Shown: positions 24,588 to 56,256 of the stretch, one piece after another | Layout: every line of letters begins with the position of its first letter | How positions within the stretch are numbered: position 1 is the first letter of the stretch | DNA from: an uncultured Prevotellaceae bacterium | GTDB taxonomy: Bacteria > Bacteroidota > Bacteroidia > Bacteroidales > Bacteroidaceae | Direction: 5' to 3' | Assembly: GCA_947169115.1 (NCBI GenBank) | Contig: CAMVOK010000002.1 | Coordinates: 1-64,000, forward strand | Length of the DNA: 64,000 bases | Translations under genes and position numbers: made by a program | Notes under the pieces: model-generated | What the model was told of the DNA's origin: nothing | Databases searched by the model: none | What the model saw: only the letters and a program-made list of their open reading frames with translations

Positions 24588-24648
24588 TCATCGTAAACCA
24601 AAAACAATACGCCTATGGACTAACAACGACCTAAGCAAAAAGACATTA

Positions 24649-24827
24649 TAAAAAGAGCGTTAAGCTTTTGTAGCTTCACTTCGGAATCTGGACAATTCCA
24701 CCATATCAGGAGCGACATCAGTGTTAGCGTCCACGCTGTGTATAGCGTGGGCATGACTGATTTCCTGATATGGGCAAGTCCAGAGCCTCGAAGTGAGATC
24801 ATACAAAGTCAGCCCCCGCTATTTTTA
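24649..24827 (+). ncRNA. Structured leader RNA, copy A
   Basis: Nested helices 24649-24659/24817-24827, 24667-24672/24802-24807, 24676-24683/24789-24796, 24687-24693/24778-24784, 24701-24711/24763-24773, 24717-24722/24756-24761, 24731-24737/24744-24750; architecture shared with 54331-54506. Confidence 0.75.
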
Positions 24828-24913
24828 TTTTGCCTGCTTCCCATCCGTGACTAATCTGTCTGCCAAAGGGGCACAGCGGACGCTAACACAATACTCTATT
24901 AATTACCCAAACA

Positions 24914-27676
24914 ATGAAAAAACTTTTATTATTTTTTTGCCTGCTACTGACTAGTCTTGGTAGCAAGGCTCACGACTTCGAGGTTAATGGTATTTATTAC
25001 AACATCACCTCATCCTCTTCCCCCTACACTGTTGAGGTAACTTATCGAGGTAATCGTCCCTCTTCATACAACGAATACATAGGTAGTTTCACCATCCCAG
25101 AATCTGTTACGAACAACAGCAAGACCTACAGCGTAACAAGTATCGGCAGTGAAGCGTTCTATGGCTGCAGTGGCCTAGCCTCCATCACCATTCCCAACAG
25201 TGTGACCAGCATCGGTGGTTATGCATTCTATGAATGCAGCGACTTGACCTCCATAACCATCCCCAATAGCATGACAAGCATCAGTAGTTTTACGTTTCAA
25301 AACTGCAGTGGCTTGACCTCCGTCACCATTCCCAACAGCGTGACCAGCATCGGTAGTCATGCGTTCTCTGGTTGCACTGGTCTGACCTCCATCACCATTC
25401 CCAACAGCGTGACAAGTATCGGTATGGGTGCGTTTCGGTATTGCTATGATCTGACCTCCGTAACTATCCCCAACAGTGTGACAAGCATCGCCGGTTCTGC
25501 GTTCTCTGATTGCCGTGGCCTGACCTCCATCACCATCCCCAACAGCGTGACAAGCATCGGCGGTGGGTTGTTCTCAGGATGCTGTAGTTTGGAGACAATT
25601 GCCGTAAATAGTGGAAACATGGTCTATGATTCCCGTGAAGGATGTAATGCCATTATTGAGACAGTTTCCAATACATTGATTGCAGGATGCAAGAATGCCA
25701 TCATCCCAAACAGCGTGACCAGCATTGGTGAGGCTGCGTTCTCTGATTGCAGTGACCTGACCTCCGTTATCATCCCCAACAGCGTGACAAGCATCGCCGG
25801 TTCTGCCTTCTCTGATTGCCGTGGCCTAACCTCTGTCACTATCTCCAACAACGTGACAAGTATCGGCGGTTCTGCGTTCCGAAATTGCACAAACTTATCA
25901 TCTGTCATCATTCCTAACAGCGTGGCAAACATAGGCAAGTGGGCGTTCGATGGCTGCGAAGCCCTAAATTTAATATATTGCGATAGAGAAGAACCTCCTT
26001 CTGCTAAGGATGACTCTTTCCCCAACGGAGTTTCGGCAATAATACCCAATAATGTCGCTGCATATAAAACAGCATTAGGATGGAGAAATTTAGCAATTAA
26101 TATTCCATTTGCACTCAGAGGAACAACACAATCGACCATTACGCTAAGAACTTCTGCATACTTTACCGACCAGAAAGTGGTGTATGGCGGTGTTACATAT
26201 ACCCCATCAAATGGCATTGTTAAAATAACTAATCTTGCACCAAACAAGAAATATTCTATACCAGTAACAGGGAAATATGAGGGAAAAGAACTAAGTGCGG
26301 TTGTGACGGCACAGACAAAGACTATTTATGTAAGTAACGTTTGGAGGATAGATAGAACAAACACGACGCTCACTATATTTTGTGGCAATTCAGATAATGT
26401 CCACGAAGCTTCCTCATGGTGGGGTGCTTATGATGCTGGAGACGCAATTGTAACCTATGCTGGTTTTGAGAATTATGGAATGGGTTCTGACTATGAATTT
26501 TCTTCTAATGCACCGATAATAGGTACACGAAATTTCAAAGGGAAAAAAATTGTAATTGATGGACTTGTCCCAGGTAAAGAATATTCTTTTTCTTTTGTGG
26601 TTAAAACAAGCGACGGTAGTGAGTTTAGGTCTACTGGAAGTTCGCAAACCTTGGATATTACTGCTAAGGGAAGTGCTATAATGCAAACGGCTTCATCGGC
26701 AACACTGAAGGGAGAACTACAAGATTTGATAGATGCAACTATAGAGAGTATAGGTTTTGAGGAAAATGAGTATAAATCAGACGAATTGAAATTTTGCGGT
26801 TTGAAGCCTAACACTTCCTATTCGAAGACATTCAAGGCAACATTCAAAGAAGGAGGTTCCGTAACAGCTGATATCACTTTCAAAACATCATCTCTCACCC
26901 TCGAAACCCTACAGCCAAAGGTAATCAGCGAGGGCAATGTTATTGTAGCGGCCAAGTCGAATCTTGATGACGAGGAGACAAACGTGGGATTTGAGTGGCG
27001 CAGACAGGATTGGAACGATGACTTCGACTCGAAGACGGGTGGTGCCTACCTGTACAACGGAGAAATGGAGGGCTACATCCGTAACCTTAACGCAAACTAC
27101 CTGTGGAAATTCCGTCCGTACTACGAGGCCAACGACGGAACACGCTACTACGGTGAATGGAAGGGGCTTGACCCATCGGACTACTCATACTTCGAACCCA
27201 CGGTACATACCTATGCCAATGTGACGGTGAACGAGAATACGGCTATGGTGAAGGGCTACGCCCAGCGTGGAACAGACAACGTGACGAGTCAGGGATTCCT
27301 GTACTGGCCAAACGACGGAAACTATGTAAAGGCTGAACAGCCCATGCGCGTGACGGAAGTGCCCGACGATGCAAAGAAGGTAACGGCCAAAGGTACGGTG
27401 ATGACCGCCAAACTGACGGGTTTGTCGTATAACACAACGTACAGCTACGTGGCCTTCGTGGAGACCTCAGAGGGTGAGACGTTCTACGGTGAGGAAATGA
27501 CCTTCCAGACGGACGATGACTTGACGGGAATTGAGCCAATTCATAATGCACCATCCATAATGCATAATGAAGAGGCTATTTATGACCTGCAAGGTCGCCG
27601 CCAGACAAAGATGCAGAAGGGTATCAACATCATCCGCATGAGCAACGGCACGACTCGCAAGGTGCTGGTTATGTGA
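24914..27676 (+). CDS. BspA-like leucine-rich-repeat (LRR_5) surface protein
   Basis: Signal peptide; tandem 'LTSITIPNSVTSIGGSAF..C' repeats; C-terminal YDLQGRR motif. Confidence 0.92.
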   Translation: MKKLLLFFCLLLTSLGSKAHDFEVNGIYYNITSSSSPYTVEVTYRGNRPSSYNEYIGSFTIPESVTNNSKTYSVTSIGSEAFYGCSGLASITIPNSVTSIGGYAFYECSDLTSITIPNSMTSISSFTFQNCSGLTSVTIPNSVTSIGSHAFSGCTGLTSITIPNSVTSIGMGAFRYCYDLTSVTIPNSVTSIAGSAFSDCRGLTSITIPNSVTSIGGGLFSGCCSLETIAVNSGNMVYDSREGCNAIIETVSNTLIAGCKNAIIPNSVTSIGEAAFSDCSDLTSVIIPNSVTSIAGSAFSDCRGLTSVTISNNVTSIGGSAFRNCTNLSSVIIPNSVANIGKWAFDGCEALNLIYCDREEPPSAKDDSFPNGVSAIIPNNVAAYKTALGWRNLAINIPFALRGTTQSTITLRTSAYFTDQKVVYGGVTYTPSNGIVKITNLAPNKKYSIPVTGKYEGKELSAVVTAQTKTIYVSNVWRIDRTNTTLTIFCGNSDNVHEASSWWGAYDAGDAIVTYAGFENYGMGSDYEFSSNAPIIGTRNFKGKKIVIDGLVPGKEYSFSFVVKTSDGSEFRSTGSSQTLDITAKGSAIMQTASSATLKGELQDLIDATIESIGFEENEYKSDELKFCGLKPNTSYSKTFKATFKEGGSVTADITFKTSSLTLETLQPKVISEGNVIVAAKSNLDDEETNVGFEWRRQDWNDDFDSKTGGAYLYNGEMEGYIRNLNANYLWKFRPYYEANDGTRYYGEWKGLDPSDYSYFEPTVHTYANVTVNENTAMVKGYAQRGTDNVTSQGFLYWPNDGNYVKAEQPMRVTEVPDDAKKVTAKGTVMTAKLTGLSYNTTYSYVAFVETSEGETFYGEEMTFQTDDDLTGIEPIHNAPSIMHNEEAIYDLQGRRQTKMQKGINIIRMSNGTTRKVLVM

Positions 27677-53796: not shown

Positions 53797-53966
53797 CAGT
53801 CCGTTTCCGTTACTTCTGTATGTTCTTGCGTCCGCTTTTTTATCCTCCGTTTTGTGACATCAATGTCACAACTCGAGGCATAAGGAAATTTCGTTTTGTG
53901 ACATATATAGTCACAAGTCGGATCATAAGGGCGTTTCGTTTTGTGCCATCAATGTCACAAACGAAT
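53797..53966. repeat. 44-bp-period array of TGTGACA palindromes (copy B)
   Basis: Palindromes at 53852-53871, 53896-53916, 53939-53961; matches 24086-24256. Confidence 0.88.
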
Positions 53967-54263
53967 ATACACATTGAATGTACTGTACTACCCTAAAAAA
54001 AGTTGAATGGTTTTTACCTTAACCCTGCCATAGGTTGAATGCCTGTTTGGTACCTTAATCCTTAACCCTGGCAAAAGTTGAATCATTCGTTTTCATCTGA
54101 ACAAACAAATGCATTTCACCTCCTCTGGTAGGAGCCCCATCAAACTCCCCTCCTCCGGGGAGGAGGGGTAGGGGTGGTAGCGTCAAGAGGCAAAGTTTCA
54201 TTCGTTTGCGTGTTAGTTTATTGAATTTTGAATTTATAATTTTGAATATTAAATAAAGTTTCC

Positions 54264-54271
54264 TATCTTTG
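54264..54271 (+). promoter_or_regulatory. Bacteroidetes -7 element TATCTTTG of leader RNA copy B
   Basis: TAnnTTTG at the same relative position as copy A. Confidence 0.7.
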
Positions 54272-54330
54272 TTGCATTCAACCAATAATATATACGCCAA
54301 TGAACAGATAAACGCATAGTATAGACATAT

Positions 54331-54506
54331 AGAAGAAGCGTTAGCTTTATATTCTTGTGTTCTAAGAATTGGGGAATTTAAGGAATACTATCAAGAATTG
54401 AGGTTAATGTTCACGCTGATGGCGTGGACTTTTACTCGTTTAAGATAGTAGGTTATCCCCAATACCTTAGGACACGTAGACGAAAGTAATTGTCCACGTT
54501 TTCTTT
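54331..54506 (+). ncRNA. Structured leader RNA, copy B
   Basis: Helices 54357-54366/54466-54475, 54369-54375/54456-54462, 54386-54392/54444-54450, 54409-54416/54422-54429, base CTTT/AAAG 54345-54348/54483-54486; same nesting as copy A. Confidence 0.72.
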
Positions 54507-54571
54507 TTGTGTCTATCAGGAACGACAGAACCAACTCACTTTTTTTATTAACTTTTTAAAACATTACAACT

Positions 54572-54721
54572 ATGAGAAAGAAAACTTACGAGAAACTAAA
54601 CATGAAGGTAATCTCCCTCAGTCAGGAGAACCACCTGATGGTAGCCAGCGACCCCACGACGAACGAGGTAAACGCCACACGCAATAACTACAGCGGCGGT
54701 GCCGCATGGGAATGGATGTAA
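54572..54721 (+). CDS. 49-aa small peptide, not in ORF track
   Basis: MRKKTYEKLNMKVISLSQENHLMVASDPTTNEVNATRNNYSGGAAWEWM. Confidence 0.7.
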   Translation: MRKKTYEKLNMKVISLSQENHLMVASDPTTNEVNATRNNYSGGAAWEWM

Positions 54722-54786: not shown

Positions 54787-56256
54787 ATGAAGAATATATT
54801 CAATAAGATGTTGGGCGTGTGCCTGACAGTTGTAGCCAGTGCCATGTTCACAGGTTGCTCCAGCGACGAAGAAGCAGTCTCCCAAAGTGCGCCCCAGACG
54901 GGCAAGTTCACCTTGACGGTACGTGCCGAGAAGCAGGGCGTCACACGTGCCCTGGCCATATCCGACGTGGACGGTGACGGGCGCGACGACGTTCAGGCCA
55001 CCTGGACGGCCGGTGACGAGGTACAGGTATTCGATGCCACTACGGGCAATGCCCTGACGGGCGTTCTCACTGCCCAGGGCAGCGGAGCCTCCACGTTGCT
55101 GACGGGAACCGTGGAGGGCACGGTGTCGGTCGGCGATGCCCTGAGGCTGACCTACCTCTCCAGCGACTACAGCAGTCAGGACGGCACGCTGCAGTACATA
55201 GCTGAGAACTGCGACTATGCCGAGGCCACGGTTACGGTGGGCTCGGTGGAGAACGGTGAGGTTACGCCCACGGGCAATGCCGAGTTCGTGAATGCCCAGG
55301 CCATCGTGTGCTTCACATTGATGGAAGTTACAGGTGCTCCCCTCAGTGCCAGTGCCCTGACTGTGGACTATACCACAGGCTCCGTCACCCTTGCTGACGT
55401 CCCATCCTCCACCTACACGGCCAACGGTGGCACGGGTGTTCTCTTCGTAGCTCTTCCTCCCGTCAGCCAGCAGGCCATTACCTTGACAGCCACGGTGGGT
55501 GACGATACCTATACCTACGCCACCTCCTCAGCCGTAACACTCGCAGCTGGTCAGTACCAGCCCATCAGCGTGACGATGACGAAGGAAGTTGTGGACAGGT
55601 CAGGTGTAATAGACGGACGTGCCTACGTTGACCTCGGTCTTCCCAGTGGAACCTTGTGGGCAACCTGCAACGTGGGTGCCGACAATCCCGAAGACTATGG
55701 CCTGTATTTTGCCTGGGGTGAAACTACTGGCTATACGCAGGACACTTCCGACGGCCATAGTTTCGGCTGGGCATCGTACAAATATTACAATGGAGATAAT
55801 GTTGCCCTTACCAAGTACTGCGACGACAGCAGTTATGGCTATAATGGCTTCAAGGACAATTTGACCGAACTCCTCCCCGAGGACGATGCCGCTACGGCCA
55901 ACTGGGGCAGCGGGTGGCGCATGCCGACAATAGAACAGTTTGAGGAACTCATCAACAGCAGTTACACCACCACCACTTGGACTACGCGTAACGGCAAGTA
56001 TGGTAGATTGATAACGAGCAAGATGTCAGGCTACACTAACAGGAGCATTTTCCTGCCGGTCGCAGGGTATCGCTACGATTCGTCGCTCGGCTACGCGGGT
56101 TCGTACGGTTTCTGCTGGTCGCGTACGCTCGGCGCGGGCGGCGCGGGCCCGGGCGGTGCCCGTTACCTGGGCTTCGGTTCGAGCTACATCAGCGCGGACG
56201 GCGACTCCTATCGTTGCTTCGGTCAATCTGTTCGCCCTGTGCGCGTGTCTCAGTAA
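54787..56256 (+). CDS. Surface lipoprotein with FISUMP/CLec-like C-terminal domain and putative DGR variable region
   Basis: Lipobox FTGCSS; YVDLGLPSGTLWATCNVGA; C-terminal GSYGFCWSRTL...GQSVRPVRVS. Confidence 0.85.
   Translation: MKNIFNKMLGVCLTVVASAMFTGCSSDEEAVSQSAPQTGKFTLTVRAEKQGVTRALAISDVDGDGRDDVQATWTAGDEVQVFDATTGNALTGVLTAQGSGASTLLTGTVEGTVSVGDALRLTYLSSDYSSQDGTLQYIAENCDYAEATVTVGSVENGEVTPTGNAEFVNAQAIVCFTLMEVTGAPLSASALTVDYTTGSVTLADVPSSTYTANGGTGVLFVALPPVSQQAITLTATVGDDTYTYATSSAVTLAAGQYQPISVTMTKEVVDRSGVIDGRAYVDLGLPSGTLWATCNVGADNPEDYGLYFAWGETTGYTQDTSDGHSFGWASYKYYNGDNVALTKYCDDSSYGYNGFKDNLTELLPEDDAATANWGSGWRMPTIEQFEELINSSYTTTTWTTRNGKYGRLITSKMSGYTNRSIFLPVAGYRYDSSLGYAGSYGFCWSRTLGAGGAGPGGARYLGFGSSYISADGDSYRCFGQSVRPVRVSQ
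56058..56250 (+). other. Putative DGR variable region with 3' end resembling an IMH
   Basis: Run of NNC/NNT/NNG codons compatible with AAC-type template codons after adenine mutagenesis; ends GGTCAATCTGTTCGCCCTGTGCGC. Confidence 0.72.

Follow-up and report, generated by a model that had tools for sequence, protein, structure and literature searches.

A conserved structured RNA element upstream of secreted and surface protein genes in Bacteroidota, a candidate transcription attenuator

Two copies of a structured RNA element, at 54323-54514 and 24641-24835, both on the + strand, were found in the window, i.e. the whole stretch of 64,000 nucleotides that was analysed. It is close to certain that the element represents a conserved structured RNA family. 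We consider it probable that it acts as a cis-acting transcription attenuator in the 5' leader of the downstream mRNA, answering to a shared signal, with the helices P6 and P1 forming the ON state and an alternative helix between segments 2 and 3 (2:3) forming the terminator of the OFF state. That the element is a cis-acting leader is likely; that termination is regulated is what we infer by reasoning from the sequences compared.

The two copies in the window

The earlier note had placed a structured leader at 54331-54506. Its elements and their order were recovered, but both of its ends were clipped, the conserved element covering 54323-54514. The named blocks are present in the expected order, namely TATCTTTG, ATACGCCAATG, AGACATATAGAAGAAGCGTTAGCTTT, a long nested hairpin, AAAGT...GTCCACG and a T-tract (54499-54508), and the same order is indeed found in the copy at 24641-24835. 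Compared with dinucleotide shuffles, the folding of the 54323 and 24641 copies reached z = -6.4 and -8.5, respectively, and the fold of either copy is not due to chance. Their primary sequences are too diverged to be linked by blastn within the window; the covariance model R3 described below joins them, with 187 and 93 bits. The parts of the 54323 copy and the genes following both copies are as follows.

54264-54271, +, TAnnTTTG promoter -7 box TATCTTTG, assigned by sequence
From 54292, +, block ATACGCCAATG, assigned by sequence
54300-54311, +, mini-ORF ATG-AAC-AGA-TAA, shortly 5' of P1
From 54323, +, block AGACATATAGAAGAAGCGTTAGCTTT, assigned by sequence
54323-54340, +, P1 5' strand AGACAUAUAGAAGAAGCG, partner 54497-54514; 17 P1 pairs in alignment A6, all with double-sided changes
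54340-54343, +, 5' side of pseudoknot PK1, GUUA, partner UAAU at 54405-54408
54353-54365, +, P2 5' strand, partner 54467-54480
54368-54375, +, P3 5' strand AUUGGGGA, partner 54456-54463
54387-54392, +, P4 5' strand, partner 54444-54449; 99.7% of cells paired
54405-54408, +, 3' side of PK1, UAAU, immediately 5' of P6, assigned by covariation
54409-54416, +, segment 1, the P6 5' arm GUUCACGC, assigned by covariation
54421-54435, +, segment 2, the P6 3' arm and its extension GGCGUGGACUUUUAC, partner segment 1 or segment 3
54450-54453, +, PK2 AGGY, partner RCCU at 54464-54467, the two enclosing the P3 3' strand
54475-54481, +, CGUAGAC, kept in the genus, assigned by sequence
54486-54499, +, segment 3 GUAAUUGUCCACGU, complementary to segment 2
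54497-54514, +, P1 3' strand, extending across the U-tract as far as GUGUCU
54499-54508, +, U-tract UUUUCUUUUU
54572-54721, +, 49-aa peptide ORF MRKKTYEKLNMKVISLSQENHLMVASDP..., first gene after the 54323 leader, between leader and lipoprotein
54787-56256, +, lipoprotein with a weak Mfa_like_1 (fimbrillin-like) match
24914-27676, +, BspA-type LRR_5 protein with a signal peptide, 78 nt after the 24641-24835 copy

No Pfam or NCBIfam match was obtained for the 49-aa peptide. The promoter of the 54323 copy is enclosed by a 13-nt inverted repeat (92%; 54030-54042 and 54274-54286), which could, judging from its sequence, be the mark of an invertible promoter; a 14-nt motif around the second arm (54274-54286) occurs just once more in the genome. 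Further upstream, a cluster of near-palindromic TTTTGTGACATCAATGTCACAA units at 53851-53961 is a possible operator or repeat array.

Fold and competing helices

Copies of the element were collected using successive covariance models. The structure given by RNAalifold on a first MAFFT alignment was rejected, its middle part being wrong owing to misalignment, and the model R1 derived from it served only for recruiting copies. The model R2, made of two sequences and a hand-set structure, led to R3, which was built from 46 copies. Two sets were analysed, 60 copies phylum-wide and 70 copies from Bacteroidales, i.e. 130 together. In the resulting architecture, P1 closes the element, P2, P3 and P4 form an arm, and a weak P5 with the hairpin P6 makes up the apex. 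Among the 60 phylum-wide copies, 87.4% of the cells are paired, against 39-45% when the partners are slid, and the value is 96% for P6. Double-sided changes affect all 59 model pairs (59/59), and 0/500 shuffles matched the observed pairing. The alignments used here, A5 to A7, were fitted to the model, a bias mitigated by tests independent of it: mutual information calculated with no use of the structure ranks the model pairs at the top, alignment-free folding yields z < -2 in 130/130 copies, and the minimum-energy folds of these copies recover a median of 83% of the P2-P6 model pairs. Two other proposals were dropped: a pairing of the 5' block with P6 (ACGCC/GGCGU) is not kept across copies, and for a retron ncRNA, in which P1 would resemble a1/a2, no reverse transcriptase was found among the downstream proteins scanned.

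These data bear directly on the possibility that a mobile or decayed DNA repeat of the MITE or REP kind has come to lie upstream of genes by chance. The many copies per genome, the truncated copies on C32 and C8 and the flanks shared by loci L002 and L005 would fit such a repeat. Against it, compensatory changes preserve pairing throughout the element, G-U pairs are strand-consistent, copies are coupled to a promoter, keep a constant orientation to genes and are retained phylum-wide, and blastn found no copy in phage and plasmid records. A repeat free of structural constraint is thus refuted as the sole explanation, and we regard chance placement of a mobile or decayed repeat as very improbable. 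Recombination of leader cassettes is likely to be the way in which the element spreads.

Several pairings lie outside the nested model. PK1 joins the bases following P1 (GUUA, or GUCC in sister copies) to those just 5' of P6 (UAAU, or GGAU); its lead pair varies between A-U, G-U, U-A and G-C, and its covariation score was reached by 0/500 shuffles. PK2 (AGGY...RCCU) is almost invariant and its covariation is weak. The third and most informative pairing involves segment 2, the P6 3' arm, which is complementary to the 3'-terminal segment 3, immediately before the U-tract. The mean duplex energy of 2:3 is -16.6 kcal/mol for cognate segments versus -13.1 for swapped ones (z = -18) and -7.4 for shuffled ones, and here again 0/500 shuffles reached the covariation score. 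A divergent clade keeps 2:3 with other letters, for instance L266 (GGGUGUUCCU/AGGAACACCC) and L297. The energies of 1:2 and 2:3 are close, and the two helices are both conserved and mutually exclusive.

The element is best read as a transcription attenuator, given that 1:2 and 2:3 cannot form together and that 2:3 lies right against the U-tract. Transcription would start just 5' of the element and the RNA would fold into a closed rod, P1 to P6, in which PK1 would fix the apical P6 hairpin. With P6 (1:2) formed and P1 sequestering the U-tract, read-through would occur and the leader would be ON; pairing of segment 2 with segment 3 right before the U-tract would create an intrinsic-type terminator, turning it OFF. 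One shared ligand, protein or physical signal would bias the choice, and a set of genes, most of them secreted or surface genes, would then answer one cue. P1 pairs, with covariation, bases located past the U-tract, so that a read-through RNA must exist. The helix 2:3 crosses P2-P4, so that its terminator would be either pseudoknotted or formed with P2-P4 opened; a pseudoknot is unusual in a terminator and is the main weakness of the attenuator reading. A simple terminator scan called P6 alone and not 2:3. In the genus of the window copy, CGUAGAC and GUCCACG (54475-54498) can by their sequence form a local hairpin, which could provide a second route to a terminator.

Alternatively, the element might be a leader that stabilises the mRNA or controls its translation, acting as a structural 5' cap or as an RNase or membrane-targeting element, and 2:3 would then be no terminator but part of the final tertiary fold. 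The closed rod at the 5' end is very stable, surface proteins are abundant downstream, and 2:3 might join tail to apex as a pseudoknot formed alongside P2-P4. However, 2:3 is incompatible with P6, itself conserved, and is followed by a U-tract in 80% of the copies, and we hold this explanation to be quite unlikely.

Transcript ends and comparison with known RNAs

The sequence TAnnTTTG occurs upstream of 47/60 phylum-wide copies (6.2 in shuffles), mostly 15-23 nt before P1, and of 32/70 Bacteroidales copies (2.9 in shuffles), usually 35-60 nt before P1. At the other end, a T-run of at least 5 terminates 104 of the 130 copies, as compared with 5/130 for an A-run control; the window copy has an interrupted U-tract. 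In Bacteroidales, an ATG followed in frame by a stop codon no more than 5 codons later precedes P1 in 47/70 copies (26.1 in shuffles). The exact pattern ATG-NNN-stop is found in 27/70 of them (5.6 in shuffles, with a maximum of 13) at a near-fixed place before P1, e.g. in L002, L039 and L044. No such enrichment was seen in the phylum-wide set, and the mini-ORFs, 1 to 5 codons long, share no codon. Their position and pattern leave room for a translation input in Bacteroidales.

In the trp and his attenuators, segments 1:2 and 2:3 are exclusive, a U-tract comes after segment 3 and a short leader ORF stands at the 5' side. The element resembles them by its exclusive 1:2 and 2:3 helices, with a U-tract at the end of the downstream helix, and, for Bacteroidales copies, by its short 5' ORF. 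It differs from them by its putative sensor domain, which is long and pseudoknotted, by its long-range 2:3 pairing, and by its mini-ORF of 1-5 codons, which has no bias towards particular codons and which other clades lack. As no leader ORF rich in regulatory codons was found and the mini-ORF is absent in the phylum-wide set, a leader-peptide attenuator of the trp/his kind was rejected. The GEMM c-di-GMP riboswitches occur many times in one genome, in front of a variety of surface genes, and combine a conserved fold with an expression platform. The element is likewise multicopy before diverse surface genes and has a conserved structured domain coupled to a putative expression platform, as in a riboswitch, but its sequence and fold are unrelated to GEMM (no Rfam match).

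With Rfam 15, no family reached the gathering score in the window, and the same holds at the element positions of 31 additional loci belonging to other genera, clades and families. The window copy gave sub-threshold hits with Prevotella-2 (RF03043; E 4.5, 19.3 bits for a gathering score of 72.1) and with rteR (RF04181; E 2.2, 19.6 bits for a gathering score of 72), and is a member of neither. Flavo-1 (RF01705) and Bacteroidales-1 (RF01693) are also structured Bacteroidota RNAs (PMC2864571), and neither matched copies from across the phylum even at E <= 1. The literature searched held no description of the element; for the catalogue of Fremin and Bhatt (PMC8040213) this applies to the main text, and its supplement may include it as an unnamed entry.

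Distribution and downstream genes

Using blastn, eight clear copies or part-copies were found in the genome, including diverged ones outside the window. The R3 search recovered 19 places at E <= 0.002 plus a few truncated ones, i.e. about 20 copies. Across the RNA family, the copies stand mostly before secreted or surface genes. The view of the earlier note that one RNA stands before different genes is borne out by these copies. R3 matches at E <= 1e-4 were present in 126/151 genomes and 23/25 genera of a family sample, and in 35/297 genomes of a phylum-wide sample, other classes among them. Some of the order's other families had numerous R1 matches, with 22 in genome G040 and 10 in G036. The named carriers are Bacteroidaceae MAGs, including a MAG from horse faeces and another from goat reticulum. 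No copy was detected by R3 in 80 viral-contig loci carrying a 16-base pattern; the pattern matches are due to chance and double as a negative control. Two truncated copies, L028 and L027 (G000:C32 near 23000 and G000:C8 near 6600), keep only the 5' half, and L028 still has an LRR-like gene downstream. To our knowledge, few cis-regulatory RNAs have been described in gut and environmental Bacteroidota. The RNA is about 190 nt long, occurs in 83% of the Bacteroidaceae genomes sampled, at up to about 20 copies per genome, and has no Rfam entry; such a family would rank among the commonest regulatory RNAs of the phylum.

Downstream of the element and on the same strand, an ORF of 100 aa or more follows at a median distance of 55 nt; in some clades the next gene is 130-500 nt off, or none was found. 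A first count of signal peptides was discarded because its picker favoured ORFs with a signal peptide, and was replaced by unbiased counts. Signal peptides were found in 63/97 (65%) downstream ORFs versus 5/35 (14%) mirror ORFs, located divergently upstream (Fisher p = 3e-7), and, with the unbiased picker, in 70/117 downstream ORFs versus 12/55 window genes (p = 3e-6), both p-values being optimistic in view of the crude signal-peptide rule and the relatedness of the copies.

This tight spacing, the constant orientation and the contrast between the downstream and mirror sides all argue against an independent sRNA gene acting in trans, whose position would result from cassette duplication and whose downstream genes would merely receive read-through. 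Such a gene would have its own promoter and terminator, and the element does carry TAnnTTTG and a U-tract at its two ends; some phylum-wide copies are separated from the next ORF by more than 200 nt, and multicopy sRNAs are known in Bacteroides, such as FopS (PMC11697453). However, P1 pairs past the U-tract, so that the functional fold needs read-through, and the rod-like element offers no obvious unpaired conserved seed. FopS of Bacteroides thetaiotaomicron, which acts in trans, consists of a single-stranded 5' seed and a terminator hairpin (PMC11697453). The element is like FopS/GibS in being a multicopy Bacteroides-type RNA family with a canonical promoter and a putative terminator (PMC11697453), and unlike FopS in being a closed pseudoknotted rod adjoining the downstream gene. 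Membership of the FopS/GibS family was rejected, the closed rod contrasting with the seed-plus-hairpin described in PMC11697453, and we judge an sRNA gene unlikely overall.

In this genome, BspA-type LRR proteins follow the element at several places (24914-27676, L002, L034 and L223); the other downstream genes encode a fimbrillin-like lipoprotein, PEGA, Big_2 and SH3 proteins and one DNA methylase. The downstream genes have no common pathway; what recurs among them is secretion and the cell surface, regulators and restriction-type genes making up a minority. The earlier suggestion that the element controls a surface repertoire is thus backed by the strong signal-peptide enrichment but tempered by the methylases, XRE-like regulators and sigma factors that also follow it. 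Its corollary, a control other than metabolite sensing, found no support: many copies before diverse genes would also be compatible with a riboswitch that senses a global signal. Perhaps, and we advance it tentatively, the element defines a phylum-wide Bacteroidota class of riboswitch-like attenuators with a pseudoknotted terminator, in which one global signal (a second messenger, the envelope state, or the translation state via the mini-ORF) would gate secreted, surface and other contingency-type genes. If the attenuator reading is true, surface genes as unrelated as those of BspA adhesins, fimbrillin-like lipoproteins and SusC-like transporters are tied to one cue.

Among individual loci, the leader stands immediately before a type III-like DNA methylase (L030), an SNF2/ResIII-PLD helicase (L058) and an EcoRI-type methylase (L060), which by sequence appear to be restriction or defence genes placed behind the same RNA leader. 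In other clades it precedes ECF sigma factor genes or SusC-like (TonB-dependent) receptors at about 95-230 nt (L264, L276, L284; L241, L245, L246). Short XRE-like regulators of one look (MxHIGxxIxxE...CDRTNVYKIF) follow it in several genera (L056:1108-1335, L224, L303, L306, L316), and those of L056 and L224 had no Pfam match. The genes downstream of L002, L005 and L223 share a near-identical signal peptide (MKHKHLTFLLAMLMSM-like) and have different mature domains, as if cassettes of promoter, leader and signal peptide had been swapped by recombination. Finally, at L332 (G000:C4, near 116290), a BspA-like gene carries TTTGTTGCATTCAACCAATAAT, the sequence that immediately follows the promoter of the 54323 copy, but lacks the RNA element.
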